A stretch of 64,000 nt of DNA. It comes from Campylorhamphus procurvoides (lineage: Eukaryota; Chordata; Aves; Passeriformes; Dendrocolaptidae). This document shows positions 11,001 through 38,000 of the stretch, one piece after another. The DNA is taken from NCBI GenBank assembly GCA_013396655.1, contig WBMV01005970.1:396733-460732 (forward strand), read 5' to 3'. A program made the position numbers and the translations under genes. The notes beneath the pieces were generated by a model, which worked only from the letters and a program-made list of their open reading frames with translations, searched no databases and had not been told where the DNA came from. How positions within the stretch are numbered: position 1 is the stretch's first letter; each line of letters opens with the position of its first letter.

Positions 11001-14000
11001 TTTAATTCCACAGAGGCACAGGCAGCTATTCCAGCTGGCAGAGCCTGATCTGAAGCCTTGGTGGGAAGGTGCCTGTTGGCTCCTGCAGGGCTGCCCTGGC
11101 ACCCTGTCCCTGCCCAGCCCTCGCTGCTGCTCCCTGAGGGGCTCCTCGGAATCCACTCACCTCAATCACAGAATTATTGAGGTTGGAAAAGACCTCTAAT
11201 ACCACTGAGTCCAGTGGTTAACTGAGCAATGCCAAACCCACCATTAAACTGTGTCCCTAAGCACATCTGCATGTTTTTGGGACACTTCCATGGACAGTGA
11301 TTCCACCACCTCCCTCAGCAGCCTGTTCCAGTGCCTGACCACACTTCCACTGGTGAAGTTTCTCCAGATACCCAATCTGAATCTGCTTCCTCTTGTTCTA
11401 TCTCTTTGTTACCTGGGAGAACAAACCAATCCCCAGCTTTGGTGGATGGGCTGACCATCCACGTGTCCTGTGTGTTTTGCATCAGTCTGCTCCAGGCCCA
11501 TGAGCTTCCTCAGCCCTCCTTGGTTTTACCTTCTTTTCTTGTATTTTTATTCTTTTTCTCTGGTTTCTGTTTTCCCAGCACAGCTTCCTACGTGCATGGC
11601 AAGGCCAACAATCAGAGCAGAGGATTTTCAAACGTAGCACATCTGAAATATGGAAAACAATTTTTTTTCCCAATCTGTTTAATATTTCCCCACAAAATGC
11701 ACGGGCACGTTCATGTTTATCAGCACGCTGTGAAAAACGGCAGAATTTATATATAAATACTGATTTACATACGTTTTAAATCAAACCTCTCGGATGGCAG
11801 TGACTTCTTTGCCTGGTATATGCTGGACCATGTTGCATCCTGGAGTTTAACCTGCTGGGAGCTTTCAAGGGCTTGAATTTTGCTCTAAGAAGCCCTGGAA
11901 GCATCAGGTTTCCAGGGTCAGTTTGGTTTCCTCCCCAGGTTCCAGCCAGCAGCCGGGTTGATGGAGAGGATCCAAGCTATAGCTCAAAACGTCTCCGACA
12001 TCGCCATCAAAGTCGACCAGATCCTCCGGAACAGCCTCCTAAATGGGAAAGGTGAGTGTCCCTGGCGGTCCCCACGCTCCAAACCTCTGCTTTGCCCTTG
12101 CAAGGGGAAGATCCAGCCAAGCCAAGGTTTGGTAAAAATTCCAGGAATGGATGTGGATCTGAGGTTGCCTTCCTTGGGAAACTCCTGCCTGACAAATCTG
12201 AACGGCTGTCAGGTATAAATGCCAGGAAATTAAATGTGAAATTAAAGGTGAGGAACGGTGCCAGCACAAACACCTGGGTGGGAAAATGTGGTGGTTTGGA
12301 TCCAAATTCTGAGGGACCGATGGGATTCAGTAGGGCACCAGTAGGGGCGTTCCCATCCCACTCTGGCGCTGCTGGGAGGGCAGGTGGGTTCTCCAGATGT
12401 TTCTCCACTTGCCTGGTGGTTCCTGGATTTTAGGTAGAAGGTCTTTCCATTGCCTCTTCCACCTCAAGCTTTTTCAGTTATGGGCAAAGGAGGGCTTATG
12501 GGGGGGATGGTGGCTTTTATTAACCCAACCACAGAGGGAGAAAAGTTCCTATTACCTTTTTAGCCCCTTTATGCCTTATTTTGTAACTGACCCTGGTGAC
12601 TGAGTCTTCTTTCAGCAGCTCAGCAGGACACTTTTTATTGCAAGTTTATGGCATAAAGGCTGTTAAGAGCTTCCTTGGATCCTGCTTACAGGAACATGGC
12701 TGGGTGGGACCTGGGGTCTGGACCAGGCTGAGGGCATCAGGGAGGTGCTGTAAATGGACCTGCTGAGATTTAGGAAAGAGGAACACTCTCAGCATGGAAG
12801 CAGGGTGCATTTCCTCTGTTTCCTCCCTGATTTTTGGGGAAGATGCTTCATATCTTGGTGTCCTGCTTCGCTCAGTGGGATGGGACTGGCAGCTGTGGTG
12901 CTGATGAACATGCCTGGGGGCTGCCAGACACATCCCATACCCTCTGAGTAATTCTAGCTGCTCCACGGCTACATCCCAGTTCTCCCCATGCCCAATTTGT
13001 CTCTCTGCAGTGATGGAAGGCAGGAGGGACCAGTGTGAGGTGCCCAGGGACCCCAAGTACCCTGACTGTGCTGGGAAGGTGGAGGTGAGTTGGGGTTCTC
13101 TGTGTGGGAGAAGGTCTTGCCCTGGGATGGAAGCTCCTGGGAAGGGCACAAAACAACAGCTCCTGGGGTTAGACTGGGAAGGGCAGTGGGAAAGGGGATG
13201 CTTTCCAAAACAGAACTGCTTACTTTAATGTGGGAAAGGTGCAGGAGGAGGAGCAGAGCCAAAGATAAAGCAAAGCAGGGCTGTAAAGAAGACACAAGAA
13301 AGGTGTCCAACCACCTCTGGGAGCCTTTACTACAGAAATGTAACTTGTTTTCCCCCAGTAATAAGCTTTGTTCCTTTGGTTTGAGTCATGCAAAGCACTG
13401 AGGCCACAGTACCCAGAGGTGTTCAGGCAGCAGCACGATCAGCTCTGTGGGACCACCTCTGCCTGCCTGCAGTTCCCATGTTAAAGGCCAGAAGCACAGC
13501 CAGGAGGAAACACTATCATATTGTCTCTAAATATCTGGAGCCTTCACTGGTGTCTGGGGAGTAACCTCAGCACTGCACAGAGCAGCATCTGGTTTAGGGG
13601 GCCAGGGCCTCCATCTCAAGTAGGATGTCCTGCCTGACCCAACCTGCTCTTTACACCTGAATGCAGTCTGGCATTTGGCCCAGACCATGATGGCTTTGTC
13701 AGAGAACGTATTTACATGGACTAATTAAAAGCATCTCCCTTTTCCCTCCCCTTCCCAATGTCCTGCTTCAGGCTCAGGCTCCTGTAGAGCTGAGTGTCCC
13801 TGAAAGGATGCTGAAGGGTATATGAAAATGAGGGGGGGGTCTGTATTTTTCTCTTCCCGTGGTGCTAGGCATCCTCTCCCTCCACGATTTGAGTAAATTC
13901 AGAATGTAATGTAATTGTGGAAGGCTGTAATCCCATCTCCTCCCCTGGTGATTGCTGTGCTTTACATATTGGTCGCAGTGACTTGTCTCTGAGTAGATTT

Positions 14001-17000
14001 GTTTCTGTAGTTGAATTAGAAAGAGGCTGGCAAGAGCCGTTGTGGGGGATGATAAATAGCTGCTCTGGTCTCTGGTTCTTCTCCTCCATGTGAAATCATC
14101 CTTGGGGACTGACAGCAGATCTGTCTCCTTGCCCCGCTGTGCCCAGGGTGGTGAAATCAGCAGCTCCTCTTGCTCCCCAGCAAAACTAGTGAGGAGAAAT
14201 CCCTGTGGTGTGCCATTTCCTGGGGATTAATGGTTACACCCCCAAGGAAGGCATGTGTTGGTGCTGGAACCAGTGTTAGAAACTCAGGCAGCCCCCAGCA
14301 AACCTTCCTGGCTATTCCTCTGCCCCGTGTGCCCTGGAGGCACCAGCTGGGTGAGCATCTACCCTGCTGTGTTTGCAGCCCTTTATCCACCCTCTGCCCT
14401 TCATGTCCATCTCCCAGATAAAGGCGATGGAGAGCAGAGGTTTGCCATAGCAAGGACAGCTGGCAGGGCTGCCCCATCCCCTCCTGGCCACAGCACGAGC
14501 CCTACATGTTTCTTTGCCCCTTGCAGTGGATGAGGGCCAGGTGGACCTCTGACCCCTGCTATGCGTTCTTCGGTGTGGATGGCACCGAGTGCTCGTTCCT
14601 CATCTACCTCAGCGAGGTCGAGTGGTTCTGCCCTCCCCTGCCCTGGCGGAACCAGACGGTGGCTGCACCTTCGCCCCCTCCCCTGCCACGGGTGCAGGTA
14701 AGGTGGGCACAGCCCACGTTCTGGGGGCTCTTGGGGGGAGGCATCAGCTGGAAATGAGTGTTCCCACAGCAACATGGTGCCTCTCATGGGCATCACACTA
14801 TCGCAGGATGGTTTGGGTTGGAAGGGACCTTTAAAGGTCATGTAGTCCGATCTCCTGTCATGTCCACTGGGCCAGGTTGCTCCAAGCCCCATTCAACTCG
14901 GCTATGAATGTTTCCAGGGATGGGACATCCACCACCTCTCTGGGTTTTATCACCCCCATTGTAAAAAATTTCTTCCTTATATATAGTCCAAATTGGCTCT
15001 CTTTTAGTTTAAAGCCTTTACTCCTTGTCCTGCCACAAAAGGCCCTGCTAAAAAGTCTGTCCCTGTCTTTCTTAGAATCCTCCTTTAAGTACTGAAAAGG
15101 CACAAGAAGGTTTTCCTGGACCTTCTCTTCTCCTGGCTGAACAACCCCAACTCCCTCAGCCTGTCCTCATAGCAGAGGTGCTTTGTCCCTCTGATCATTT
15201 TTGTGTCTCCTCTGCCCCCACTCCAGCATGTCCTTGTCTTTCCACTCCTGAGGAATCTGGGATGTTTTCTGATTCTCCGGGTGCAGTGGGGCCTTTGGGA
15301 TGTGGTGCATGAAGTGGAGGAGCTGTGGTGGCTCTGGGGAATGCTGTCCATGCAGGAAGCACCTCGGTTGTGATGGACAAACCTCCCCCAGCCCCCGGGG
15401 CAGCCCAGGAGCTCCTCTCACGGCTGCTCCCCCTACACTCCCAATGCAGAGCGTGTTCCTTTCCTAGGCAGCTTTCCGGGGCGACCTGGCTCACCTCCTG
15501 GAGCTGATTGGCACGGGCAAGGAGTCCCTGAGCTTCATGAAGAAGAGGATCCGGCACTTGGGCCAGCAGTGGCTGCGGGCGGCGCGGCGCCTCGAGCAGA
15601 AGCTGAAGGGGAGGCAGAGGGACCAGAAACATGTACGAGCAAATTGCACAGTGGGGCTTCGTGGTGTGGAGATGGGAAAGCTGAGCCCTTCATGGGGAGT
15701 GGAGACAGCTGGGATGGAAACAAGCTGGGAGGAAAATTCGTGGGCGTGCAGGGTCGGTCTGTTGTCCATGGACATGACTCCCCGTGCATTTGGGATGTGG
15801 CACGATTGGTGTTGCTGAACAGTGGGGTGGATTTTGGAGTTGGGTCGTGGTGGGTGGCTCCAGCCATCAGCAGTGGGCAAGAGTCCAGCACGTCTCCTCT
15901 GAGGATGTGCTGAGGTTGTGGCCCTCCCACTGGGGTATCTGTGGTGCCCTTCCCTTTGGTCCCTGTGCACTGGGAGATCTGTCTCCAGTGCATGGCTCAG
16001 ACTGTGATGTACATCAGGAGTGTGAGCCTGGTCCCACGACACAAAGCACCAGTCAAGGCGAGCTGGCAGACTCTGACCATTTGGTCTTTGCTAATTGGAC
16101 ACAGATCACTTGCTTTCATACCTGATTTCTCTATTATTACTGCGTGCCAAGGACCTGGAGGGACTCGGGGACCGTAAGTCATTTTGGGCTGTAAAACCCA
16201 AATTGTCCCTTTTCCCAGTGCTGACCCCTCTCCTTTGTCTCTCCAGATCTTGATCCATATTGGCTTCCTGACAGAGGAGTCGGGGGATGTTTTCAGCCCT
16301 CGTGTGCTGAAGGGGGGCCCGCTGGGTGAGATGGTGCAGTGGGCAGACATCCTGGCTGCCCTCTTCCTCCTGGGACACAGCCTGAGGGTCACAGTCTCCC
16401 TGAAGGAGCTGCAGAGGTGGGTGCTGGGTGCTCTGGGCCCCCCCCAGAAGGTCTGCCCCCTGCGTGTTTGGGAGTTGTATTGAGGTCTTGTGTGAAAGCA
16501 CCAGCTCAGTAAAGGTTGCAGGTGGCTTTTCCCTGACCTGCATCTTGGGCAGTGCTGGTGCTGTACTACTGTAAGTGTTCCCCTCCCTCCTTTTCTCCCT
16601 CCCTCCCTCTCTCCCTTTCTTTTTGGGATGGCTTGGGGACCTACAGGGGAATTTGCTGCTGCTGGAGGCACTTTCTGCCATGGAATATGGGATGATGCAG
16701 AGTGAGAGTCTCCAAGAGGGAGCAATACTAGTTGGAAAAAGTAAAAGGGAGAAGCTAACCATGTGCCACATTCCTCTCTGCTGATGCAGTTTTGTTATTA
16801 CTGGGCTGGCAGTGCTGCCTCCTGTCACCTCACAAGGTTTCCTTGCCTCCTGTGAGACATCCTGAGTGGAGGGCAAGTGCCAGAGAAAATGCAGATGAGA
16901 TGGGTTATAAGTCAGGAAGAGCCTGAGGCTGCCTCGGGGACAGGGCAGGCTCTGGGACATGCTAAGCCAGCATCAGCTGCATAATGAGCCGTGCTGAAAA

Positions 17001-20000
17001 GGGAGTGAAAAAACCCAACAGTCCTGGAGAAAAACAGCCCAAAAAAAACCCCCAGCCCAGCCCCTGTGGCATTCAGAATTAATGAACGGAATTAGCTCCT
17101 GACTAATTAACTCCAAAAATTAATCCTGGTCCTATAATGCAAGAGGCAGCAGCTCCTCAAAGAGGCGTGTGTACATCACAGTGATCTGCGAGGTGTGCTG
17201 AGCTAAACTGACGGGCTAAATAATACCTGTGTGCCCAAGGATGAAAGAAGGTAATGGCTGGGAGGGTTGTGTAGTTGTTGTGTGGTTCTTGTTTGTGTTT
17301 TTTTAATGAAGAAGCTCACAGTGGTTGTTGAAGGAGGGGAAGGTGCTGGTGAGTCTTACAGGGGGTTTTGCAGCATCTGTTTCCCTCTGTGAGTGATCTG
17401 GAGAGAGCTGTGTTGCTGCCTGTAGTATTTTGCCTTTCTCAGAAACGTGGGAGCTTCAACATCAGTTGGCAGTGATGAGACCTCCTCCTCTGACGTGGGT
17501 GTGGATGTGTCCCTTGGGATGCCTGGGAACCGGCAGCTCTGTCTCTTCCCCTTTGTAGCTGAGACTGGAAATGAGCAAGCCGGGCTGGGACTGCACATCT
17601 TGCCCTTCTCTGTGTCCCAGTGATAGAAACTGTCCCCACCTCCCCAAGAATGTGTCCTGTGCCTGGCTTTGATGACATTTTAAATGCTGGGCACCCATGT
17701 TAAGTGCCCACTTTCGTGCTGTTGGGGCTGGGGTGAGCTGAGGCAGGACCTTTGGAGACTGGTCCCAGCTCTCACTGGGACCCTTCTGCAGCCCATCAAG
17801 AGGGGGGTTAATGTGGCTGTCAGAAAGGGGGCAGAGGTTCTTTCCAAGGGGAGGACTGAGTGATGCCAGCAATCCTGCTCAGTCCTTGCAGATCTCCCAG
17901 CAACATCCCTGCTTTAGGGCTGGTGGCTCTAAGGAGTGTTGGGAAAAGCTTTTGCCTGACCAGGACCGAGTGGGAGGCTTAGCAGAACATGTGCAATTAA
18001 TCCTGAGTCATGCAAACAGTTAATCTTGGGCTCTTTGTTAAAGCCTGGAGGGGACTTCACTCGTAGCCACAGATTTGGGCAGGGGTTGGTTGCTGCTCAA
18101 GGGGATGGAGCTTTCCCCTCCTGTAGACTGGGACCCAATTTGTCCTCTCTCATCCTGGGTGTCTCTTGCTGAGCTTCGTAGCAGGGCAGGCACCAGTGTT
18201 GGGATGTGTTCAGAGATATTATGCTCCGGGGATGTTTTGCTTCAGCAGTGTGAAGTGTTGAATCCACTTTTTGTGTATTTTTCTTTGGCAGCCCCTGTTC
18301 CTTTCATGGCTGGGAGCTGTAGCTGCTCCTGCCCAGCACAGCCTTCGCTCATAAATTATTCAGGATGGATTAACCTCTCTCCTCGTTTGTTGTTTTTTTT
18401 TTGTCTGTTCAAATTTCTGAGCTGATTTTTCTGTGAGTATTGATCATTGGCAAGGGATCCCTGGAAGGTTTGCCTGCATACACTTCAGCCAGTGGTTCTG
18501 AGAGCTGCTCATTATTAGCATCTGTATTGATTGCAATGCAGCAGTGCCTGGAGGGTGGGGGTCAGGATTGGGTCTGGAATGCTGGGCATCGGGCAAATGA
18601 GGAGGAGGAAGAAGGAAGGCCCTGGTCAAAAAAACTGGTGATGGAGGGGTGAAAACAGGCTGGGAGTGTGACTGGGTGTGCTGGGCACCTCTCCCTGCCG
18701 AGGGGCTCTGATGGGGAAGGCAGCAAATGCTCAGTGACAAGGATGAGCAGTGTTAAATGGTTCTTCCTCTGGTTTAGGGGACCAGTGCTCATCTGGAGTG
18801 GAGCCAAGGAGCTCTAGGAATCTTGCTCCATGGCTTGGCACTGTCCAAACATCCCTGTGAGATCACAGTGCTCTATCTGGCTTTTATTTTACTCACTATA
18901 AGCCTTAAAGAGCTGTGAATTCTGCTGCTATGTTCTACCAGGGGCTGATTTTTTCTCCTGTAGTTGTTCTAAGTTCAGGTATTTGTCCTTTTTTTGCATT
19001 TCTCAGTGAATTTGTGAGGTGCTTCTGAGGCAAGAGAGGCAAGGTGTGAAACACAGGGTTTTCTGGTCCCTTCCCACCCAGACCACTCTGTGATTCTGTG
19101 CAGCTCCCTGGGAGGAAAGCAAACTGTTGAGCTGGAGCAGGGAGACAGGAGCTGTTTTCCATCTGAGATTTGTGCTGGGTTGGCAGCCAGCAGCATTTTG
19201 AGCCCTGTCTTGAAGGAAAGAGGGAAGAAACATCCCAGTTCTGAGTGCCAACACTTTACTCTTGCTGAAGACCCCTTGTGCTGTGTTGGTAGACCAGAAG
19301 TGCTTTCAGGGAGGTGAGAATCCAGCCTGATGTTCGTGCTTGGGAAGGGAGGAGTGGGAAGTGTCTGGAAGCCCTGAGCTGGATTGATAATGAGGCAGCT
19401 CATGAGTAGATGTTGGAAAATTACAAGAAGCACTTTGGAGCAAGGGCTGTGCCTGCACAAAAGCTTTAATAAGCTGAGGCTCTTCCTCTGGAGCACCCGT
19501 GCCAAGGGGTCAGGCATGAAGGATTTGCTCAGCCTTTTCCCCCAGGAGAAGGGGCACTACAGGCACTGCTGGGATCTCCAGCTCCTGCCCCCATCCTTAG
19601 GCCACGGGAATGGACATCTTGGCATCTCCAGCTGCTTTTGTGGGGTTAAAGGAGAGGCTTGGGGAGATGGGGCTGTGGTGCTGTGAACTGCTGGAACCAC
19701 AGCAGTATTGATCTCAGTGGTGCTGAAAGGTGCTTTTCACAATGGTCCCCTTGAAATTAACTGGGCAGAAAGTCGAAGAAAATGGGATTTGACGCCTCGT
19801 GGGGTCAGGGCTTTATAAAGTGTTCCCGGAGCTTAATTGCTGCTGTGTCAAGTTCTGGACTCCTAATACCCTCCCTGGCAAGGCACTTGATTTTCAGCAC
19901 GTGCTTGTATCCTGTGCTGGCAGCCCTTTCCCTGGCCAGCAGTAGCTGTGGCCAGTGTGTGGTTTGGGTGACGAGCCACCCTCCCTGTGCTGGGATGGTG

Positions 20001-23000
20001 TGGATGGGCTGCACTGGAACTGGCACCATGGCAAGGCTGGCACCATGGCAGGACAAGACTCAGCTCCCGCTGCCACCACTCTCCTCTCACTGCCTGGCAC
20101 ACAGAACTGCAATTTTCCTGAACTTTCCACGCTCACTGAGGTGTGTTCATGCTGCAAAAAGAGCCATTCAGATGGAAACACAATGTCCAGATGAACGCAT
20201 TTCTAATTATTTGCTGGCAGAGAGAAGCCATCTCTCTGTCTTGCATCTGTTCCCATGAAAACCTTCCCCATGATGCCCAGGCTCACTGCTTCACCTCCCC
20301 TCACCAGCTGGCAAACACAGCCCTGCTGTTGTGCAGGAGAGAGAGGAATTGCTTGTGGAAACAGCCAGAAGTGACCAGTTGTGTGTGATCCTGATGGAGC
20401 TGCGTGGCCTGGCTTTGGGATTCATCAGCTCTGCACCAGTGGGGAGGAACCTTCTTTAGGGTAGCATCAGGTGCTCCTGGTACATGAGAGGGAGTGTTTC
20501 TGGAAGCTGATGGGGCTGCTGGGTTGTTCCTTTTCTGGCCAGGCTTTGATGTTTATGCTGGGACGTGGCTGAGTAAAGGCTGTTGGGGGCTGTGGAAAGG
20601 CTGGATGTTTGGTTACAGGGCTTGGGGGAGTTCAAGGTGATGCTCATAGTTGTGGGTACTTGGCAGTTGCAAACCCTTGCAAGGCCAGAGAAGATGAAGA
20701 TGGAGCCAAGAGGTTACACAGGCACTGGACACAGCACTGTGTGTCTGAGCTTCAGGGGCTTCTTCAGGCTGAAATTTAATCAGGACATATTTCCAGCAGA
20801 CCTGTCTTAGGTGGTGGGTTAGGTTAGGCAGGGGTCTTCGTAGAAACTGAATTTGCTGTAGTGATATTCATGAAGATTTGGCTAAAACTGTGTCTGTGTT
20901 TTCATAAAATCACAGAATGGTTTGGGTTGGAAGGGACCTCAGATATCATCTCATTTCACCCCCTGCCATGGGCAGGGACACCTTTCACTAGCCCAGATTG
21001 CTCCAAGCCCCACCCAACCTGACTCTGAACACTTCCAAGGATGGGGCAGCCACAGCTTCTCTGGGCAACCTGTGCCAGTCCCTCATTACCCTCACAAGGA
21101 AGAATTTCTTCTTTATTTTTTGAGTTGCTGGAGCAGCTGGGACAGCAGGAGGCAGCCTGTCTGTCCCAAAGTCTCCCCAGGCACCACAGACATGTGAGTG
21201 TTCAGTTTCTTCTGCTCTCCAAAGGAGCCCAAGTATTTGTTCCTCCTGTCCTAGGAAGTTTCTTCGTTATTTGCTGAATCTCTTACCAGAAAGAAATGTT
21301 TGCTCTGGCACCCTCCTGTGCATCTCTAGGCCTTGGAAATAAATAAATGGATTGCTGCACTCCCCCTTGGAGGGGTAGGGCTGTGCCATACAAGATCAAC
21401 AACAGGCTTGAGAAACAGTCCTAGTGCACCTTACAAGAGGGAAACCACTGCAGGTGGCTTAAAAATCCTGCTGCAATTGCTTGGAAATCCTCTCTTCTAG
21501 CAAGTGTCAGTTCCAGCAGCTGGAAGACCTGGGAGCAGAGGGCAGGCAGTAGGATGTTCATCTAGTGGGCTTTGGTTTGCACTGTAAGTCCTTTATGATG
21601 GGGTTGTCACAGACCCCTGGGAGCTGCTTGGGCTTGGCTCTGACACCTTTCACCCCTGGATAACGGCTCTGGCAGACATGGAGAAGGTGAGGGAGCAGTG
21701 AGGACAGGAACTCTCCTCCATTCCCCCAGCCCGGCTTGCTGATGGCAGCAGATGTGGGCAGGGAAGATGCAATTAAATATAATACAGGATATTGGCCCAG
21801 GCTGCCAGGAGATGCCCAGGAGATCCATTTAGTGCTGGACTTTGCAGCACCAGGAGTAATAAAGTGGAAAGAAACGTTGGGTTAATTTGAAAATAGGTCA
21901 ATGGGATGTAAAGATAACCCCGCAGCCATCTGATTTCAGAGCGCTGCACCGCGCTCGGGGAGGGGAGCGGTCCCCTGGTTTGATTAAAGTACCTCTAAGA
22001 GGAAAATAGCAGGACAAGAAGCTGCTGTGGATTTATTCTGGAGTAGGCACAGCTGGCAGAGGCAGCTGGCAGGGAGGAGAGCTCGGCTCTTGCATCCATC
22101 TGAAGTGGCTGTGCCCTCCCGGAGAGGAGCGATGCACTAATTTGGGATGTCAGGATGGGACCAGCCACTGGATCACCACCTGGGGCTCTGGAGGTGCTGA
22201 GCCTGGCCATGAGCTGCTCACCATCCTTGGCTGGCCTTGGAGGGGAGGTTTCTCCGGGAGCTGGGATCAAGTGATTTCCAAAACGGGTCTCTGGGCTGAG
22301 GAAGCGGCATTGGCGCTCATCAATTTTATTTGCGTAATTTCAAGCGCCATTAATAGTACATGGCACGAGGAAAAATCAGGGAAATTGCACTCCAACCATG
22401 AGTGAAATTGGGTTTAGTAGAAAATTAGTTGACTTAACTGGCAAATGATGAAAGCTTGAATAAAGAATGTTTAAATAAGGAGGAATCTAAAAAAAAAAAA
22501 AAATCCCCCCTCTGCCATCTCAGAGGTGCAGCCTGGACTTGCATGACTGGAATATTAAAATGTGGTTATCAAGTGTTTAGGGAGGATAAGGGGGGTAAAT
22601 GGAGAGATGCTCTGCTCAAAGGCACTGGTCCTGCTTTGAGAGCTCTTCCTGCCGTGGCACTGGGAATGTAAATGGATGTGGCAAGTCCCAAGCACCTGGA
22701 GAGGGGATGCTGGCAGATTGCAGTGATGAAAGGAGCTGGGGGAGCCAGACCTGCTCCACCTAATTGGTGGAAAGTTTTTTGGAGGCTTCAGTATGAGTTA
22801 CGCTAATTGCTGTCTCCTCATCGAGCTTGGTTAGGGCTTTCTTAAATTGCAGATTATTTTGTAGTGCACTGGCTTGTGTGACATGTACCAGCTGGAGGAT
22901 GGGATGTGCTGCAAGGAAAATGGAAGGGTTTGGGGATTTTCACTTAAATACAAGGTTTAGAGATTGGCTGAGATGCTTCACCACAGTGCTGTGTTGGTGT

Positions 23001-26000
23001 AAATCACTGTTTGGCTGGTGCCTGAAGAAAAAGCAGCATGTGCGTGAGCAAATGTGATGTTTAGAATTGCATCTCTCTAAAATCTTGGGTGGTTTTTTTT
23101 TACCGGTTTAAAAATTCCCCTCCAGGCTCCCTGGGAGTGTGTCTCCTTGTTGCCCTGTGTATCGTAGCGAGGTGGCTGTGGGAGGTGAGAGCCTTTCTAT
23201 TCCTGCCATCTTCCCAATCCCTTCTGTCGTGTAAAATCGTGCATAAAAGTGACAAAAGTGCGACCTGTTCCCCCCGCGGCCGCCGCGACTTGGCTGCCCT
23301 GAGCTGATATTCCTTGTGACAAGAGCAATGAAGCAGCTGCAGAAGCAGCTCTTCGCCTCAAATTGAAATCCTGCATTTTCCCTGGCTTTGTTATTCCACA
23401 TTTACGTTCTCTCTGGAGTGTAAATCAGAAGTTTGGGATGACCCTTCACCCGGTCTGGGTTGGGATGGGGCTGGAAGAAGGATCTTGGTGCTCAGTGCAC
23501 AAGCCATGTAGAATCATTTTGAGTTAGAAGGGACCTTTCAAAGGTCTTCTGGCCCAACCCTCTGCAATGAACAGGGACATCTTCCATTAGATCAGGGTCA
23601 GAAGAAGAGGGGGACACAGACAGGAGCAGACCAAGAGCCATTTGGTGTACCCCTTATGGCCAACCCAATTCTGGCTCTGTATGACCCCTTGGGATGTCAG
23701 TGAAGGCTATGAGAGACAGGAGAGCAAATACATGGGATAACTGTTTTCCTTGGCTGTTCTCCAGGTGGAAGAGCCACTGATTTCCTCTGGAAGCAACTGT
23801 GGATGGATAGGTTAAATGCTGAAGGGCTAGGTAAGGGATGAGGACTTTATGGAAGTGCTTCTCAGAGGATGGACCCTTGGCTGTGGGTTCATTGGAGCTT
23901 CAGCTGAACAACAGATAAAACCCAGGTAGGGCTGGAAAGAGGATTCTCAAGTTCAGAAGGGAAACAGTAAGAGAGCTCACATAGAGGGAAAGATTCAAAG
24001 CCTGGGAGTTGAAGATCTGACCACTACTTTTATTCCTAAAAATAATATTTAGAGGCATGGCTGGGATAAACTCCCATCTCCAAATAGGTGCTAGGAGTAA
24101 GTGAAGAGCCCAGAAGAAAACAAAGACAGACGCCTTGGCAGGCAGGAGCTGAGGGTGAGATTTCACAGTGTCTGAGCTCAGACTTGTGAAATAAACCAGG
24201 AATTCCTCAGCCCTGTTGGGAGGACTGAGAACAAAATGGGACAACTGCGTGGTGGGAGTGAGCCAGCCCGGCTGGACCAGATCAGCTCAGCAGTTTGGTT
24301 TCCCAGGAGGATGTTGGTGTTGCTTTCTGGGTGTTTGTGCAGTTTGAGAGTGAGGAATTATTGTCTTTAGGAGGAGAAAAAAAATGACTCGAGCGTTAGA
24401 GCTGAGGAGTGAATCATTTGTATTTCTGAACAAACTGGCACTTGGAAATCACAAGTATGGGTAACAAGGATTTTTGAGAAACCTGCTGAAGCTGGAAGGT
24501 GTCACAGGTTTCTTTCTGAGAAGGAGGAAACACGGTCCAGACAAGCAGATGGGCTGTCAGTCTGACATCAGTGGTACACTTAGTGAAGCAGCTTTGGAGA
24601 GAGGGATTCATTGCTTCACAGAGGGAATTGGAAATGCAAGGAGACACACCACAAGTTTACCAGCCTTGTATCTTGCTGGATTATCACATCTCACCCTGGC
24701 AGGGAGGTAAGCGATGGTCTTGATAAAGAGACTGCAGTTGATCGAGTTTATCTGGATTTTCATAACACATTTTATCCTCTGGAGGAGGGAAATGGGGCTC
24801 ACTGTGGTTGGTGTCAGACACTGGCTGGAAATCCCTGAGCCAGGGGTTCAGCTGCCCCAGCTTCATTAAAGTATTTCATAAATGGAGCCAAAAGTGAGAA
24901 GTATGAATGAAATATGCACGACATCCAAGGGCAGACAGTGCCTCCAGAGTCAGGGGGAAGCTGAGGGTGCTCCAGGATGTGGTGAGTAAGAAGTGGAGTA
25001 AAAGAAACAGTGCGTGGTGTGTGCTGGGAGGGACGTGGAGCTGGAGACAGGGAATTTTAGGCCAAGCTGGGAGCCTTGCAGGCAGAGAGGAGAGGAAAGA
25101 TGCGTGTTTACAAGTCTGTCACTGATGTGATTGCAATGAAAGTAGATGAAATCTGGTGTCTTCAACAAGAGGTCTGTGGTGACTGAGATGCTGGTGAGCC
25201 CTGGCTGGGATTGCTGTGCAAAAGCCTCACAGTCCATGTGGGAGGAGCAGGTGCAAAGGTGAGGAGGGACCAGGATTCTCCAGATCTTTGGCCCAGGAAA
25301 TAAAAATTGGGGAAAGGAGAACCATCTGCCTGCCCCTCCATCAAAGAGGGACCTGGTTGGTGGCTCCTGCTCAACACCGGGCAGGGAAACCAGTGTGTGT
25401 GTTTCAGGGCTTTGGTGGTGCTGGGGCTGATCCCTCCTGCTTCTGCCCAGTCACTTAGGGGTGCCTCCAGGACGGGGAAACTGCCCCTTGACCAGCCCTT
25501 TGCCTTTCGACCTGATTTACACCGACTACCACGGTCTCCAGCAGATGAAGCAGCACATGGGGCTCTCCTTTAAGAAATACAGGTAAGCAAAGCCTCTCCC
25601 TGCTCTTATTCTCCATTTCTCCATTAATTAGCAAGCAAGGACCAGTGCTAATGACCTCGAGGGATAGCCCCCCCTATCTGAGGAGCCAGACACTTTGATT
25701 TTACCTTTGATTTTTGCCTGGCTGGTGCCTTGCTGTGTCCCCTGCTGCCATGGCACGAGGTGTTCTGCTCACTCGAGCCTCACGTGTTTCAGATAAAACC
25801 TTGTTAAAAGAGACTGAACTGGGAAAAGACCAAACCCTGGATGTGCCTGGGGTGTGTGTGTGCTTCCAGTTCTGTGCCTGCAGCCAGGGGTGGGCACACC
25901 ATGAAGGGAAGCGTGAGCTGTGTGGATTTGTAAGGAGCCCTGTCCCTGGCTCCTTCAACATCAAGACAAATGTCATCATCCCCTGGTACATCACCAGCCA

Positions 26001-29000
26001 GGAAAATATGTGATTTAATTTAGTGCTGATAGTCCTGCTATTTATTATGTTTTTTTCCCATCTCTTCCACTATCCTACACAATTTTATTAGAGAGAAAAA
26101 TGACAAGCTGCGTTATTGCTTTTATTATAAATGCACTTGCTCTCGCATTCAGCTTGTTTTGCTCTTCCCTTACTTGTTGTTCCCCTTCTCTCCTCAGTCT
26201 TGTGCTGGTAATGCCTGTCTCAGCATTCCCAGGATATTGGGGAAAGCATTAATAAGTCTTCAGGAGATCCATCATTCTCCCAACTGTCAGGGAGTCGAGA
26301 GTCCTGCAAGGGGAAATTGCTCCTCACAGGAGGGAGTGGTGGGTTGGGAAGGGCTCCTTGGGATGCTCCTGCACCCTCTGCTCGGAGTGCAGACAAGGGA
26401 CAAGGTGCCTGGGGACACCAGATGTCTGTGGAAGTGTGACTCCCTCAAACTGAGGTCCTGGGGACACCAGATGTCTGTGGAAGTGTGACTCCCTCAAACT
26501 GAGGTCCTGGGGTCCTCTCGCAGGTGCCGCGTCCGGGTCATCGACACCTTCGGGACGGAGCCGGCGTACAACCACGAGGAGTACGCCACGCTGCGCGGCT
26601 ACCGCACCAACTGGGGCTACTGGAACCTCCAGCCCACCCAGTTCATGACCATGTTCCGTGAGTGGGGGGCAGGGGCACGGCAGGGCGGTTTGGGGGTCTC
26701 ACAGGGACCACAGAAGCAGGTCTGACCTGCTCCAGGAGGTGATGCACAGGCAGCGTCGTCCTCCCTGGCTCTGCTTCTGCTTCCTCCTGTCTACAAGGAG
26801 CTCCTGAGTGTTCTTGGCCATCTCTTGGGCTACAGAAAGAGAGACCAGGCTCCTTCCACTGCGATGGGTTGCTGGCTCCAGCAGAGTCAGGGCACAGCCA
26901 GCAGCCTCCAGCTCCCAGCAGGGGGAGAGTGGGGTGGTTTTGATTGCAAAGCCTGGTTTGATTTCAGCTGGGATGCTAAAGGTGAGAGGCAGCTCAGTGA
27001 TCTGGATGTGCCTGTGGCGTGGTCAGGAGATGTGCTTGTCTGAAGAGAGCCCAGTGACCCTCTGGCTGCTGCATGAATCAAGTGTTGCTTTTTCCTGGCT
27101 GCATAAAGGCCCTTTGGCAGACTTAAAAATGCCTCACTTTGTAAAGAGCCACTTGAGCGGCTTCTACAGCCTGGATTTCATGAGCTACTTGGAATGGGGA
27201 TTTGTGCCATTTTTCCTCTAAGCTCCACCAAGGCTCTGGAGCCAAACTGTGCTGTGATGTGGCTGCATCCTCAGCCCTGGGGAGGTCCCAAAAAACATCT
27301 GTCCAGCCACATCTCTTCTCCCCTTGGTGCCCACAGCTCACACCCCTGACAACTCCTTCATGGGCTTCGTGTCAGAGGAGCTCAACCAGACAGAGAAGCA
27401 GCTCATCAAGTCCAACAAAGTGAGCAGCATGGCCGTGGTGTATGGGAAGGAGGCCAGCATCTGGAAGGTGGGTGTCCTGGAGGGACTGGGGGTAAGCCAG
27501 GTGGGCAGGGGTAGTTGTAGGCATGGCTGGGAGGCAGCAGAAGTAGCCTCTGGTCCTTACCCTGAGCTTTTGAGGGGCAGATCTGGGTGTGTTTGTAGAG
27601 GACCATCCTTGTCGCAGTCCTGCAGGAGTGATGTGACACGTCCACTGGCTCTGAGCAAACAGGGAGAGGCTGGTGAGACACCATTCCCTGTGTTTTGCCC
27701 TGGGTGATGCTTCCTCCCAGCAGGCTGCTGAGGTTGAGGATTTCCTATCAATGATTTTATGTAATTAATTACAATGATTGCCATTAATTAATTGCAATGA
27801 TTGCTGCGTTATGATGGGGATTGTTTGTCTCTGCTTTCAAGTACCCTGTGAGAAGGGATTGTGCTCCCTCCATCTGCCTGTGCCTCTAACACCTTGGGGA
27901 GAGGAGTGGGTATGGGGACAGCACCCCCAGTCCCCCCAAAACATCCCCTCTGCATCTCCTACAGGGACTGTGTGTGCCCCCCCTGTCTTTATCCAGAGCT
28001 AGCAAGCTTCTCTTCCTTCCAGGGCTTTAAAAAGGAGTTAATTCTCACAGTCTCTTGCTTTATTTCTCTTTTTCCCCTCTGTGCACCGCCTGGGGCTGCT
28101 CCAGTTGCAGGTACTGTACCTCACCAGCTGCTGCTGGGCTTTACCTCTGCGTGTCTTCTCGGGAGGGAAAAGGTTTTGACGTGGGCTTGGTCCTCTGGAG
28201 CTGCCGGGATTGATGGGGGTTGAGGCAGTGGGGGCTGTGTCTCCTCCCCTTCCCCATCCTTCCTGATTAGCAGCCGCTAATTAGCAGGGCTGCCTGCAGT
28301 GGATCGGGATCTAGCCATGCCATCTCCTCTTTACTGTCTCCCTAAAAGACCCACTGAAACCCACTAAATCTCATTTTAGGAGAACTTTAATATCTTGTCT
28401 GATTTTTCTGCCATTCCCTCTGCCCTTTCCTATCCAGAAGTTTCCTTTGAGCTTAGTTAGGTTAATTCAGGAAGGCACTAAAGAGAATTAAAAGCTCAGA
28501 ATGGACATTTCCCTCCACCCTGGGTGCCACAAGCATTTGCTCCTTTTAGTCAGAATGCACAAACAACATCAGTTTCCACAAAACTGCATATTTGGGGTAA
28601 TTTTTTACTGGCTAAAGGAGCTGAGGCTGCTCCTTGCTGGTGGCTGCCCCTTGAGGCCAGACTGCCTGGGCTTTGCTTCATATCCTGTGCCACCCCATGG
28701 AATAAAATTAGGGGATAGAAGGATTTTGCCTTGCTTTGAGTGATTTTGAATGCTAGAAAGGCAAAGAACATCTCCATCCTCTGGAGCCAGGTGCTTATTT
28801 ACCAGCCTTGGAACAAATGCTGCTTTTCAGAGCTGGATATTTTTGACATTTTGAAACATTTCATTAAGCCTGCCTTTCCTATATTTTTCATTTCCTACCC
28901 CTCTGAACTTCTCGCCTCCAGCTTGCAATAGGAGCTGAAGTTTTAATAAGGTGAGAAAGGCTTGGGTTTAGCCTTGGAGAAGCCCAGGGATAGAAGCTGA

Positions 29001-32000
29001 GGACAGAAATACAGTGTTCAGGGGGGCTTTAAGGCAACATCCCCAGCTCACTCGAATTCCCAATTTATAACTCCTTATTCCCTCCTGGTCTCTGCTCTTT
29101 CGGGGCCTGTTGCAGCACTGGAACAAGCTGAAAATGCAGCATCCAAAGGCTGGTCCTTTTGTGGGTTTTTCAAGCAAGAGAATTCTGCAGTAGAGAAATT
29201 GCTAAAACCAAAGATTGCTTTGGAGAGCAAAAGAAGCAAAGCCTCCAAAAGAAGAAAATTGATGACCCCCTTCATTTTCCAGGTAGTGAAACAGGATTAA
29301 ACCTGAGCAAGAAAATCCTGGGGACTTGTTACTTGGAATAAGAGGCTGTTAGCAAGCTCTGGTCTTTGCAGACTTCCCTCTGAGTCTGCTGAAGCCTTTA
29401 ATTCAGCAGCTCCACATGGAAGTAGCCCTTGGAGGCAGCAGGAAAGGCAGGAGCTCGAGGTGCTGATGTTCAGGGTGATGGATCCTGCAGTCATTTGGGC
29501 TCTCTGCCAGCCTGGGGTGGTCCAGGATGTGTTTCCGAGGAATGAGGAGGTGTGGATTTTGCTGTGGATTTGCCTGAAGCATCGTGGGTGCTCTGGGACA
29601 GCAATTTCAGAGTTAAATCTCCCCCATAACTGCAGAAAGGGGAGGTCGTGCCCATCTTTCCATGCAGTTCTCACCTCTGCCTTCCTCCCCAGGGCAAGGA
29701 GAAGTTCCTGGCCATTCTCAACAAGTACATGGAGATCCATGGCACCGTTTATTACGAGACGCAGCGGCCGCCCGAGGTGCCGGCGTTCGTGAAGAACCAC
29801 GGGCTGCTCCCACAGCACGAGTTCCAGCAGCTGCTGAGGAAGGCCAAGGTGGGAAGGAGTCAGCTGGGGCATCCCAGGTCCCTGTCCCCTGTTACCTCCA
29901 CTCCTCCCAGCCTTGGAGGTGCTCTCAGCTGGGATAATTAGCCAGGAGCCTCTCAGCCGGGATAATTAGCCGGGAACGGAGCAGAGCACATCGTTTCACA
30001 TCAAGATGTGTCTGATGAGTTTCTCCTTGCAGACTGTCCGCAGGCAGAGCACCAAGTCTCCTGATTAATTCATTTATGGCTAAGAGGGGTGGGGTTTTTT
30101 TCTGTCACCACATAGCTGTGACAAAAATAAATAGGGTTCTCAGAGGGAGTGTGTGGGTGCGGGCACATCCCGGTCGCCTTCAGTGGGTGCTGGGGGAAAT
30201 ATTCTTGATTCACCAGCCCAAACAGCTTTGGCAAAGCGATATTGCTCCATACAGACCCAGTGGGATGGTTGTAACCCCCACGGGGGAACTTGCAGCTCCT
30301 CCACACACCTCTGCCATGCACAGGTGAGCTGTGGAGCAGGGGCAGTTTTGAGGACATCTGAGCTATGGGGTGTTGAACCCCCTTGGAGGCTTGGTGTGCA
30401 GGAGCAGAGCAGCAGGGAGGGATGCTGGTGGGTTATTTGGGAGGCATCCCTATGGGATTGGCCACATTCACTCACCAGCATGTTGTTTTCTCCCTTGCAG
30501 CTCTTCATTGGCTTTGGGTTCCCCTACGAGGGTCCTGCCCCACTGGAGGCCATCGCCAATGGCTGCGTCTTCCTGCAGGCGAGGTTCAACCCCCCCCACA
30601 GCTCCCTCAACCACGAGTTCTTCCGCGGGAAGCCGACGTCCAGAGAGGCAAGTGTGGCAGGAGAGGGGATGGGATGGATGGGTGGATGCATGGATGGATG
30701 GGAAGAATGGGATGGATGGATGGATGAGCAGTTGCCAAAGTCAAGTTTGCTTTTTTATTTAGTTAGGTTTTCCTCCAAACACACAAGTGTGGATTCCTAC
30801 ACATGGGATCCCTTCTCCTGTTCTCACATCACCTCCATCTGGAGCACTTGGATGCACGGGGGGTCCTGCTATAGGTTTGGGGTTCACAAGGAAAAGGGGA
30901 TGCAAGAGCCTTCTGCAGACCACAAATCCCAGCTTCTTCCCCACCAGCCCACAGGAATCCACTCCCTGCTCCCAAACTGGGATGATGCTCCCCCATTCAT
31001 CCCTTTGTCCACGCAGAGGACCAGCAGAACCTCCATGCTGTTGCAGAAGGATAAAATCCCTCCCAGGCTTGCCCGTCGCTGGGAATTCAATCTAAGTAGA
31101 GCAGGAACTCTTTAAAACTTAAAGGCTTGAGAAAATTGCCTCTTTTATTATTAATAAAGTGGATAATTCAGTGCAATGCTCAGGGAGCGAGCTGTGGGAC
31201 CAGGCAGCTCAGCCCTGTCACCACCCTACGTGGCAGCCCCATCCTGGGGGTGGGTGGCACTGCACTGTCCTGGCCCCCATGTCTGCCCCACAAACACCCC
31301 GAATCAGCTTCTGGTGTCATCACCCATCCCAGGGGGTGCTGTGGTTGTGCTTTAGCCTGGAGCTGGGATGGCAGCCGGGGGCGAGGGCTGTGAGATGCCT
31401 CAGGGTGTTTGTATGCCGGAGGGGAAGGAGGACATCAATCTGTTGGGAGAGAAATGAGAAAGGACAGCAAGCTGGAGAACAGAACACAGAGCGTGTTCTA
31501 CTCTCCTCCTCCAGCTGCCAGGGGTTCAGGCCCCTCCGTGATGTTTCATGGTGCCCCCAAAATACCTCCTCTGATCAGCAACTTCTCTCTCCCCTTCCCA
31601 GAGGAGATCAGGGCTCTGGCTGCCTCACAGCCTTGTGGGGCTGAACCAAAAGAGGTAGATTCCCAAAAATCACCCGGTGAGAGGTGGGTGGCTGTGGGGT
31701 ACCAGTGTGGGGGCTGCCTGTGGCATCAGGGAGATGCAGCTTCAAGCACTGCTTTCTCCCTGAGCCAGACTGTCCCAGCCTTCAGTGGTGATGGATCTTC
31801 TCTCTGCCTTGTTCCTGGAGCTGGCAAACCTGAGAGACATGGTGCCTTCACACCCCTTTACTGCTTGGTCTGCTTTTGCCATCCAGACCCACAAATGGTT
31901 CAGGTCATGGTTAAATTTTGCCTGTATTATGGAGATATTCAGGTCTGTGGAGGCATTTCAGTGTTGTTAGAATGGGGCATCCCAACCCAATGGGAATTTT

Positions 32001-35000
32001 AGCACAAAACCCCGAGGTCAGGGGGCAGCTGAGTTGAGAAGAAACCTTTCTCCAGCACCTCCCTGTGTGCAGTGGGTTAAAACTCAGTGTGTCTGTGCCT
32101 GAACCTGCTGTTCCTCTGCCATCATAGCCATGAATGGGCCAAATCAGCCCTTCCAGCAGGGATTGCAAAATCCAGCTGGCACTGGTGTGTTTTAGGTGTC
32201 CTCCCAACACCCATATGCTGAAGACTTCATTGGGAAGCCACACGTGTGGACTGTTGACTACAATAACTCTGAAGAGTTTGAAGCTGCTGTCAAAACCATC
32301 ATGAGGACCCAGGTATGGCCGAGGGGAGGTGTTGGGGTGATCTCTGGGTTGGGACAGCAGCAGTTCCTGGTGCCTGGCTCTCCCTTTCAGACATGAAGTG
32401 CTTTTCTTTCCTTGCTTCTCCTTTGGAATTATTTGCACGTGCAAGGAAGAAATCAAGAAGTCCTCTTCTCCTGCAGCCTCAGGGGGACAGGTGCTCCCAC
32501 CTTGCTTTGGTACTGAGTGGAGGAGGTGTTTCCTCAGGGCAGATCTGTGCTTTTTGGGAGATCCTCTGGGCAGAGCTGGAGCCAGGAGAAGCTGAGATGA
32601 GGCAAGTGAGGTTGGGAGCAGGAGACTGAGGTTGCTGGAGACGTGTAGCAGTGTGGTTCAAAGAGAAACCCAGAGAGCCTCTCCCAGCAGGTATCCAGAG
32701 AGCTGCAGCCCCCTGTGCCTGCCATTCCCCCACTTTGCTGTTGATCATTAGCGTTGGGATGGAGCAAATCAAGAGGAAGAACTTGAGGAGTTGCCTCTGT
32801 GAAGAATGAAGGGATGTAGGGAAGGAGGGGGCGTGAGGACCCTCGGGGAAGGCAGCACTCCCACTGCGCCCGCTCTGCAAATGCTCCCTCATGAATATTT
32901 ACCTCCTGCCCTGTGGCAGGAGCCTTTCAAGTTGTCCAAATTATTAAAGTCAATTTTCCCGCAGGGGAGAAAAAATGCTGATAGCCATTTTGCTTGCAAT
33001 TTGCTTCGCCTGGGATGAGCCCTCCCCTCGTGAGGATGATGATGTGCTGTCAAACCAGGACCCTGCATGGAGCTGTGGGGGCTCAGGGTTGCAGTGCTGG
33101 GTGGGATTTTGGGGGGGACAGGGGTGGTGCTGGTCAGAGAGTTGCCATTCTTGGTTTTCCCTGCATTACAGGCTGCAGAGTTGAGTGGCTGTGACAGTCA
33201 GAGGATGTGGCCATGCCATCAGCCCAGATCTCTCACCTTATCACAGGCAATTACTGCAGCTCTTCACCTCGCTCTCATTTTCTCCACGAATTTGCAAAGA
33301 CAGAACAAACCTGACTTAGGAAAACAGTTGTTGTTTTGCACATTCGTTCCCGTATCTCGATTAGAATTAAATTAAAAATAATTACATCCCTGCTGCTGTG
33401 CTGCTGGGCCAGCTGTCAGCGCTTGACCCTCCACCATCTGGGCTGGAGACGGCCCCAAAGTGAAGGCAACGCTGTGGGCGGGCAGCTGGGAGCTGTTTTG
33501 GGAGGGGGAAGGAGGTTTTCGGCCTTTCCAGAAGAGAAGAAAGAGAAGCGTGGTGCTGCTATGCTATTAAAATAATTAAAGAATGATTGGAGAATTAGGG
33601 AGGGGGGAGAAGGGGGCTGTGCTGGCTCCTGAGCAGCTGTGCTGCGCTGCAGTGTCGGCTGGGTGTGCACCAGGTCATTTCGATGCTTAATGATGATGTT
33701 TGGTTGAAAATAGAAGAGCCAGAAAGGATTTTAGGGAAGGATTTGGTGGTGTGAGGGGCACTGGGCAGGAGGAGCTGGTGTGGGGACCCGCTGTATCCAG
33801 CAGCAGGCACTCACTGGAGAGTGATGCTGTGCCCATCCCTGTTTAACCCAGAAACAAGCTCCTGTCTCAGCTCTTTTTTCTCCCTGTTCCCTCTCTTGGA
33901 CCAGAGACCCCCACCTTGAAGTCCCTTCCCCTGAAGCATCCCAGCCACTGGAATTACCATCAGCTGCTGGAAGGCTGAAGCCCTACATTTGCCTCAAGTG
34001 AATAAATCGAGTGGCTGACATCCCCCTTGCACTGTGACACACAGTCACTCTGGAGAGGAGCCATTCCTTCTCTCCAAGAAGTCAATCCTGCAACTCACCT
34101 CTCTGCAGTTTTTAAAAACATTGTATAAATCCTCCCAAAGCAGAGCAGGGAGGGAGTGTGAATAACTTACAGCAACCTCTTTTTTTTTTCCCCCTTTTTA
34201 TCTTTTAAATAGAAAGGTCTGCTTTATTAGAGATGCAGTCAAGGCAATTAAGCCTAAAAATTGACCTACCTTAGAGGTTTAAAAGCCTCATTATGGGCCT
34301 TGGCTCCAGGAATCCCTGGGTATCTTGTCTTTAAAATACTGTTTGTTCCAGCAGGAATTGAAAACAAGGACATTAGCAGGAGGAGCAGCAGAAATCTGGT
34401 GGCTGGGCAGTTCAGTCTTGCTGTTCCCAGCCAGGTACTGGAGTTTGGAGAAATTATTTTTACTGACTCCTTTTTTTTTCGCCCCCTGAAATGGGGTGTT
34501 CTGTTATTGGAATATCTAACAAATTTGTCTGTGTTTCAGAACAACCACCATCAATTTATTTTTTTTTCTGTCAAAACATTTCATTTCAGAATTACTGGAA
34601 TGAAATACTCTGGTTTTGTTTCCCATCTGCCTGCCTTTGTTTGGAAATACCCTGCCAATTTATTGAAAGGAAGGCTCGTATCTGAAATGATGCATTTCCC
34701 TTTGCTTCACCGACTCAGACAGATTGAACCTGAAACACAACATTTTCCCCTTCCTTGATGGGTGGAAACATTGGAAATTGAAAACTGACCCGAAATTGAT
34801 TATATTTAGGGTTTTTTTGTTGCCGCATGACTGAAAAATCACTTATCCCACAGCTGTGGTTTTGCATCTTACAGGCCCAAACCCAGGAAAACATTTTTGG
34901 GGATATGGGATGTTGTGGGATGAGATGCTCTCCCATCAGCTTTTCTTGGTGGGAGCTGTGCTGGATGCTGGGAACCAGAGTGCCAGGGACTGGGAACCAG

Positions 35001-38000
35001 GATGCTGGGAACCACTTTGGGAGCTGATTTCATGAGCCTGCCAGTAATTCTGATATAGCCAAACTGACAACAAGCTTGTCCTGGTTTGGTTCTGGGCTGG
35101 ACTTGCTGCTGCTCAGCAATATTTTAGTGTTGCCTGTGGCTCTGCAGGCAGGTCACTGCTGTACAGCACCCCAATTTATGCTGCTGACACCCAAGGCTGC
35201 AGCTGGGGGTGGGATCCAGCCCTGCCCCAGCTCCTGCTGGGCTCTCAGAGCATCCCGTGGTGTGCTTGGAGCCCCTGGCTCTGCTGGCAGGGCTGGCTGC
35301 TGTGTCTGTGCAAACAGAGCAGTGGGGTGCAGCTGGAATCCTTCACCAACCTAGTTTTGCCTGAAAGAAACTTCCTTCTGGAGAGAGCGAGCTGAATCAC
35401 GGCTTGGGCGTGGCTTGGGTTTGCAATGTGGGTTTTTTTCCCCGCAGTAAAGCCCCTTTGCTCCCCTCTCTTGTCCTCTCAGAGGAGGCACCCACTCAGG
35501 GTCACCCTGCAACTGCTGGGGAAGGCTTTTGGCAAGCTGTGCCTCTGCCCTTCATCCCACTTGGAGCAGTTCTGGGTTTCCCTGGTGGTTTGCATCTCTG
35601 ACCTATTTATGAGGAAAATTGAAAATGTGGAAGTATCAAACCACTCTACCCCAGAGATCCAATCTCAGTGCGGTGATGTGGTGCAGAGAGACAAGTTGTG
35701 TCTCCCTGGGAAAGGTGATGCCAGGGGGTGGTCCCAGTGCTGGGTTATGGCTGGGATCCAGGGGTTACAGGCTGGACAAGGAGAGAGGTTTGCAAGCACC
35801 ACCATTTTCTGGGCCTTCAGCTTTTTCCATTGTCAAAAGTAGTCCTGGCACAAGCAATTTAATAGACCCAATATTCTGGTGTAGTGAAGGGAGAAGGCAT
35901 CATTATATTAAAGTCAAACATACAGGACTATAATGGAAAATTATACATTTCAGACTATGCCTGAAAGAGCGGCGCATTAAACATCACAGCGAAAATAGCT
36001 GGTTAAAATGTTCCAGCCTGCTGTTACGTGCCAGCAGAGAATTGCATTATTTTTCTACTTATTTGTCTGATGACGTTTGGATTTTTTTTTTCCCCTTTTC
36101 CTTTTGAGTGAGAGAGACTTGCTGCTCTCTTCCTGCTGGAGGCTGTAAAACCAGGGCTCTCCTGATGGTAGCCCCATGGGACACCAGTAACATACTGGTT
36201 GGCTGATGGAGAGTGCTGGGGCTGGAGAGCTCTGCCTGTGGTTCCTCACCTGGGGGAAAGGGTGGCAAAGTCCATCTTCCCCAAACCCTCCACTTTCTCC
36301 CGTGGCATCCCATGCATCATTCTGCCAGGCAGTGGCATGCAGTGGTGCCCCCCTCAGAACCCTCCTCTTCCTCCCTCCCAGAGCTCTGGGCACATCCTGA
36401 GCTCCCAACACAGGGAATGCCATTAGGGATGTGGCCATGAAGGGGAGGCCAAGCCTGTCAGGTTTTAATTAAAACAATTATCTTCTCAAAATTGGCATTT
36501 TCTATGAGTCCTGGGTGCATGAGCTGAATCCTAACGAGACTGGGAGAGGGGAGCAGGGGAGAGTGAGAGACTTTGGGGAACCCCTTGAGGGTGAGAGAGG
36601 CTGGAGGAGCAGAGCCTGCAGTGTCTCCCCCAAAGTGGTTCCAGGCAGCATCCAGCCCCCAGCCTGGCTTTGTGCAACCCAGATGGGCAGTTTTGCATTT
36701 TTCCTTTTCGAGGACTCTGCCCCAGTTAACTGAGAGCCCATCAGGAATTCAGAGGCAGGATCGGTGCCTGTCACTGTGTCAGCCCTGATTAGTGTGCACA
36801 TCTGTAATTAGAGCGAGCAGCTGTGATTTCCAGCCTGGCTGAGATCTCAGGTGGGATATTTATGGCAGGGAGATGCTTAGAGGGTTCTTAGCAGCCTGAG
36901 CCTTTGAGCTTGGGTTTGACGGGTACTTCAAAAGGAAATAACTATTCTGGAGGTGCAGAGCTCAGAAAATAGAAGCAGCAGTGTTTTCTGGATTAATTAT
37001 CTTCGGGATGGTTTTGCTTATAATCCTTTTGCATGAGATACATAGAGGAAAGGGGATCACAGGACCAGCTCCTTCCATGCACCGGCATCCTGTGGCTTAT
37101 GTAGCATCTCTCTGGAAAAATAAGGGAGTGTGGAAAAATACATCTTCCTAGGGCAGAAAGTTCCTTAAAAATTAATTTGTTCCAGCGGGAAGTGGGCATC
37201 AGTGACACAGCCCTTGTGGGAATGCTCTTCCCATGAGGAAAATCATTCTGGACTTCAGGGCAATGGCCATGCACACCCCTCACCCCACTGCTGAGGGCAG
37301 CAAGCACTGCTGCCTGTTCTGCCTGCTCCTGCCTGTCCTGCCTGCTCCCCCTGGAGCCTGTGCCCCCACAGTGCCAGGGACATGCTCGTTTGGGGGATAC
37401 TGCTGTGCCACAGGGCAGAGGAGGAGGTTTGCCATGCCAGGATCCAAGGGTGACTCTCAGGCCAGAGAAAAGTTGGGATGTGAGTGCAGGCAGAGTCTCC
37501 TGAAGATTGTCAGCGTTTCATAACCCACACTAAAAATACTCTGTGGTTTAGGTGCTGGTGACTCTGTAAATAGCATTTATCAACGTGGAGATGCAGTGAC
37601 AGCACCAACATCCACGTGGGCATCCGTGTTTCCTCCATCCCAGCGTGCAGCTGGCTGCTGCCTCCCTGCCCCATCCCAGCCTGTGCCACAAGAGACTGGC
37701 AGAGGTAGCAGCTTCCACCCCACCACAGCCACCTGTGCTGGGCAGCAAACCCTCAGCAACGTGGCAGTGGGAAAAGAGAGATGTTTTTGTCTGTGTTGCT
37801 CACAGCCAGTCCCAGCCCAGGGCTTTTCCCTGGCTAGTTTTGTCCTGTGTTGCTCACAGCCACCGAAGCCTGGACTTTCCTCTCTGAGCAGGCAGAGCCA
37901 TGCTGAGGTCAGAGGAGCAGAGGATGCTGGACCAGACCTGGGGCACCACCAGGATGCTCTTGCTCTGGATTAGCTTGGCATCTGTACCAGTCTTACCTCT

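Follow-up and report, generated by a model that had tools for sequence, protein, structure and literature searches.

The MGAT5B locus of Campylorhamphus procurvoides raises the question of which piece of DNA encodes two residues, Leu-Gln, that follow the motif SIWK in some MGAT5B proteins and are missing from others. The first-pass annotation of this locus had proposed a 6-nt microexon, TTGCAG, preceded by AG and followed by GT. The stretch of DNA analysed (hereafter the window, 64,000 nucleotides) holds this hexanucleotide in exactly that setting, with CAG before and GTACTG after it. The best explanation, in which we have high confidence, is that MGAT5B (GnT-IX/GnT-VB) has a cassette microexon of 6 nt at positions 28105-28110. 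The assignment is based on the sequence, its frame, its uniqueness, the exclusion of the neighbouring exons as a source in other vertebrates and paired isoform entries; we infer that the microexon is spliced in this bird.

The identification of the gene as MGAT5B was borne out. Joined together, the 15 regular exons e2-e16 and the 6-nt candidate can be read through 735 residues without a stop, with Leu-Gln between SIWK and GKEKF, and the MGAT5B protein of the window is 96% identical to the Rissa, Columba and Sylvia models. Exon finding was guided by a human MGAT5B sequence, and the boundaries were then taken from the DNA itself; the splice-site bit scores were computed with scoring matrices. 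The intron between exons 10 and 11 is 2225 nt long and has phase 0 at both ends. Since exon 10 ends and exon 11 starts in phase 0, a 6-nt exon keeps the frame, as had been claimed. Further downstream, exon 12 (30501-30647) has a GC donor at 30648-30649 (GAG/gcaagt) instead of GT. No Rfam family matched the window at the gathering threshold.

Table 1. Coordinates of the mapped MGAT5B features and of the signals around the candidate microexon (a slash marks an exon-intron boundary)
Feature	Position	Strand	Remarks
MGAT5B coding part mapped, exons e2-e16	1896..40482	+	stop codon at 40483; first coding exon outside the map
MGAT5B exon e10	27337..27467	+	ends ATC TGG AAG (SIWK), phase 0; donor AAG/gtgggt, 9.3 bits
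Pyrimidine-rich tract with TCTCTT at 28051 and 28065, set back from the microexon acceptor on its upstream side	28051..28080	+	within a 52-nt AG-free zone
UGC triplet, -23 from the microexon	28082..28084	+
UGC triplet at an SRRM4-type position, -8 from the microexon, flanked by the pyrimidine tract and the acceptor	28097..28099	+	layout as given in PMC5247714
AG of the microexon acceptor	28103..28104	+
Proposed 6-nt microexon TTGCAG, Leu-Gln	28105..28110	+	based on frame, uniqueness in the intron and comparative argument
Microexon donor CAG/gtactg	28111..28116	+	3.9 bits, 13th of 102 GTs of the intron
MGAT5B exon e11	29693..29848	+	starts GGC AAG GAG (GKE), phase 0; acceptor ctccccag, 11.1 bits

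The candidate is the only place in the exon 10-11 intron where codons for Leu-Gln stand between AG and GT, and it remains the only one when a GC donor is allowed. When the intron was shuffled with its dinucleotides preserved, 94 of 2000 shuffles contained at least one such arrangement (4.7%), in agreement with the earlier rough estimate of a few percent, and 56 of 2000 did so when Gln was restricted to CAG. Elsewhere in the mapped gene, the remaining 13 introns contain a single match, CTGCAA at 40101. The neighbouring exons do not supply the two residues, as the first-pass annotation had also stated: exon 10 lengthened by 6 nt gains GTGGGT, which encodes Val-Gly, with a donor of -7.2 bits against 9.3 bits for the regular one, and exon 11 lengthened by 6 nt upstream gains CCCCAG, which encodes Pro-Gln and is preceded by CT rather than AG. 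Consequently, should Leu-Gln be present in the MGAT5B protein of this bird, 28105-28110 is the sole candidate within the intron. The element thus has the properties expected of a microexon: it is internal, between 3 and 30 nt long, a multiple of three (6 nt, phase 0 on both sides) and flanked by AG and GT, and its residues are encoded by neither adjoining exon nor its extension.

The distribution of the two residues was surveyed among 120 listed matches of 997, each the representative of a 90%-identity cluster and mostly a prediction. At the junction these 120 models carry no insert (58), LQ (34), VG (12), FQ (3) or VR (2); VQ, PQ, MQ, LE and AST occur once each, and 6 models are not joined in the manner described. 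The LQ holders among the matches listed include fish (Megalops, Salminus, Morone, Salmo), frogs, tortoise, turtles, a snake, mammals and 2 birds, Tyto alba X3 (P0010) and Nothoprocta X1 (P0015). The conservation across vertebrates in these 34 of 120 listed models (of 997) thus extends, at the protein level, from fish to mammals, a range over which listed models lacking LQ occur as well; the statement in the first-pass annotation that mammals have Leu-Gln after SIWK agrees with the mammal models listed. Its statement that MGAT5 lacks the residues was equally correct, with a two-residue gap at the exact junction in 5 of 5 matched PDB sequences of GnT-V. Three frogs, Xenopus laevis, Leptodactylus fuscus and Anomaloglossus, have two model entries each, which differ by LQ alone. 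In P0070, one of the 6 otherwise-joined models among the matches listed and closest to the squamate models P0030 and P0068 (91-92%), exon 11 is missing and LQ is joined directly to exon 12, which indicates that LQ is not part of exon 11. Long frames are also present on contigs far shorter than the gene, in P0083 with LQ (longest contig 3588) and in P0079 with LE (7474), and must therefore be spliced.

Other inserts at the LQ junction are AST in P0117 (Amia), LE in P0079 and MQ in P0060 (Sarcophilus), which may represent either microexons that have diverged or errors in the models. Exon 8 is also missing from the LQ-bearing barn owl model (P0010), in which LKELQ joins RCRVRV; the corresponding exon of the window lies at 25451-25582 and, judged from this comparison, may be a further in-frame cassette exon.

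Which exon encodes Leu-Gln was addressed with two fragment searches, both of which returned mostly short contig translations running past the exon ends; mammals among the fragments were judged from likeness to mammal models. The exon 10 search listed 120 of 141 matches, and the omission of two spliced models without insert (P0122, P0123) leaves 118; five came from NCBI. Not one of these 118 listed fragments continues with Leu-Gln after WK. Val follows in 115, as expected from the GT donor, and the remaining three continue with LN, continue with AS or end there. A mammalian exon 10 that itself ends in Leu-Gln, which the first-pass annotation had named as the opposing case, was found in 0 of 118, mammal-like fragments included, and exon 10 was ruled out as the source. 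The exon 11 search yielded 105 fragments, namely 70 read-throughs (including 4 named models from databases), 31 in which no start of exon 11 could be recognised, 2 spliced and 2 too short. Leu-Gln codons stand directly before exon 11 in 16 of the 70 read-throughs, and the residue before them is Leu, Phe or Pro in 15. Since codons for these residues cannot end in AG, no acceptor could open before LQ in those 15 fragments. The one other read-through, P0156, has Gln before LQ and could yield the two residues through an upstream acceptor. A tandem acceptor of exon 11 was accordingly ruled out, save possibly for P0156 (1 of 70). Taken together with P0070 and the frog pairs, the absence of LQ from both exon 10 and exon 11 (bar P0156) appears to leave a separate cassette exon of 6 nt as the only simple account of Leu-Gln. 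On these comparisons the LQ microexon is very probably old in vertebrates, 28105-28110 being its copy in Campylorhamphus procurvoides.

The core acceptor of the candidate scores 1.3 bits, with the last 14 intron bases poor, against 4.2-12.8 bits for the 15 regular acceptors, and ranks 52nd of the 170 AGs in the intron; the donor is lower than 13 of the 14 regular MGAT5B donors. Two of the 9 AG-N6-GT sites in the intron outscore the candidate in sum (27842, TACCCT, and 27581, ATCTGG); neither encodes LQ. The strong pyrimidine tract claimed for the acceptor was found as a 23-nt stretch with one purine (28058-28080), but not at the acceptor: it lies about 25-47 nt upstream of the microexon. The UGC triplets noted near the acceptor are there, at -8, -23 and -49. 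The combination of an AG-free zone of 52 nt, a pyrimidine tract of 23 nt and UGC triplets at -8 and -23 is matched by 3 of the 2770 intronic AGs of MGAT5B, with thresholds picked after the site had been seen; 6 nt followed by GT occur at 28105-28110 only, and the other two AGs are unrelated. The motif GCATG is absent within 27901-28400. A UGC between the pyrimidine tract and the acceptor is the arrangement given for SRRM4-type exons in PMC5247714 and PMC12626420, and the candidate acceptor fits, in its layout, regulated microexons of that type.

The microexon may be real and yet constitutive or broadly included, without neural or SRRM4 control and with the UGC incidental, a reading compatible with the preferred one on identity. 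UGC is a short motif, and models without insert may reflect annotation only; the paired entries of three frogs, which differ by LQ alone, and the weak core acceptor with its UGC/pyrimidine layout, which fits regulated microexons, weigh against it, and we give this reading a real though minor chance. Considerably less probable is that TTGCAG is a chance match and that a functional microexon is missing here from this bird lineage, through loss or because it was never spliced, so that exon 10 is always joined directly to exon 11. The shuffles that contain a match (94 of 2000), the weak acceptor and donor, and the absence of LQ from 29 of the 31 bird-named models among the matches listed all speak for a coincidence; LQ is nevertheless present from fish to mammals and in two bird models among the matches listed, the candidate is single in its intron, and the UGC and pyrimidine layout is rare (3 of 2770 AGs of the gene, under post hoc thresholds).

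By manual count, the 31 bird-named models among the matches listed include 17 without insert, 8 with VG, 2 with LQ, 1 with VQ, 1 with PQ and 2 others. The claim that exons of this size escape gene prediction fits the 2 of 31; the lack of an insert in a bird model may also reflect genuine skipping. The 12 VG carriers among the 120 listed are birds (8), crocodile, turtle and lizard. The VG insert equals the first six intron bases past exon 10 as seen in the window, and among the listed exon 10 fragments VG follows in 22 of 118 and VGV in 15 of 118. At 27468-27475, the sequence GTGGGTGT following exon 10 has a second GT 6 nt further on. Similarly, PQ in a duck model (P0027) and FQ in a macaque model (P0082) are the intron codons that precede exon 11 in similar fragments. 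The VG, PQ and FQ inserts are probably the work of predictors that fill two expected residues from adjoining intron bases, VG thus being an artefact. A real tandem donor of exon 10 (AAG GTGGGT/gtcc) that gives Val-Gly with no microexon is very unlikely, even with VG in 12 of the 120 models listed of 997 (8 birds, including Rissa X1, the representative of a 462-member cluster), a GT after GTGGGT in the window and VGV, which permits such a donor, in 15 of 118 listed fragments, for this donor, at -7.2 bits, falls below the regular donor of exon 10 at 9.3 bits, LQ is present in tortoise, barn owl and tinamou models, and the duck PQ and macaque FQ look like the same forced 6-nt extension by predictors. 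The case suggests how annotation pipelines hide very short exons, either with no insert, with a VG extension of the upstream exon or with a PQ or FQ extension of the downstream one.

If the element is a cassette microexon, as preferred here, its inclusion would add Leu-Gln between exon 10 (SIWK) and exon 11 (GKEKF), and its skipping would join exon 10 to exon 11 with the frame unchanged. The core acceptor would be too weak for use alone. A neural activator of the SRRM4 kind would read the UGC at -8, aided by the displaced pyrimidine tract, and would turn the exon on in neurons. The outcome would be a brain-enriched enzyme in two forms, two residues apart at a site immediately ahead of the helix after SIWK. 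PMC12860957 describes MGAT5B as brain-specific, and PMC8147300 as expressed in brain and testis. The gene also appears in gene lists of a TDP-43 review, where nuclear clearance and splicing in ALS-FTD are treated; the accessible part of that review held no link of a TDP-43 event to the exon 10-11 intron of MGAT5B (PMC13343711).

The AlphaFold models of the Xenopus pair have a mean pLDDT of 41.3 with LQ and 42.2 without it, too poor to place residues; in these low-confidence models LQ is at 472-473, followed by a helix at 474-485, and without LQ the helix begins at 473. From the general architecture of GT-B folds, the LQ site is taken to lie within the second Rossmann-type domain and presumably matches the loop of BshA that contains N206 and K211. 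These two BshA residues interact with UDP-GlcNAc, according to PMC6107550. By analogy, the effect of LQ on the enzyme could be a small change in donor binding or domain closure. A vertebrate-wide, neuron-on, two-residue switch that alters the loop next to the first strand in the second domain, on its far side, and tunes donor use or O-mannose preference, hidden in birds by annotation (spurious Val-Gly or omission), is put forward only tentatively, the odds being rather against this wider proposal. Should neurons indeed switch between GnT-IX forms that are two residues apart in the catalytic part, assays and models must state which form was used. The accessible text of an O-mannose study of GnT-IX from 2026 (PMC12860957) has no instance of 'splice' and two of 'isoform', each of them referring to PTPRZ.

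The comparison with known systems begins with the human gene, whose isoforms GnT-IX and GnT-VB are assumed here to be 792 and 790 residues long; given these, the LQ exon is probably already in the human annotation. Of interest are how old the exon is, the artefacts in annotation and the fact that its host is a glycosyltransferase of the brain. A search of main texts found no paper on MGAT5B together with a microexon, and the two-residue length difference between GnT-IX and GnT-VB was not found either, including in the accessible parts of PMC12860957, PMC6107550 and PMC8147300. Mammal MGAT5B is the same gene, and the mammal models among the matches listed carry Leu-Gln at the same junction. MGAT5 (GnT-V; PDB 5ZIB, 5ZIC, 6YJQ, 6YJR, 9F5H) is a homologous enzyme with a homologous junction, but without the two residues. 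The closest counterparts are the SRRM4 (nSR100)-dependent neural microexons, as represented in the papers on protrudin exon L (PMC5247714) and on the UGC and UC/pyrimidine layout (PMC12626420). Like them, the MGAT5B element is short, in frame and vertebrate-conserved and has a UGC between the pyrimidine tract and the acceptor; paired model entries suggest two isoforms for MGAT5B as well. On the other hand, its likeness to the SRRM4-dependent microexons seen is one of sequence layout, and it differs from them in its size of 6 nt, near the lower limit, and in its host, a Golgi glycosyltransferase.
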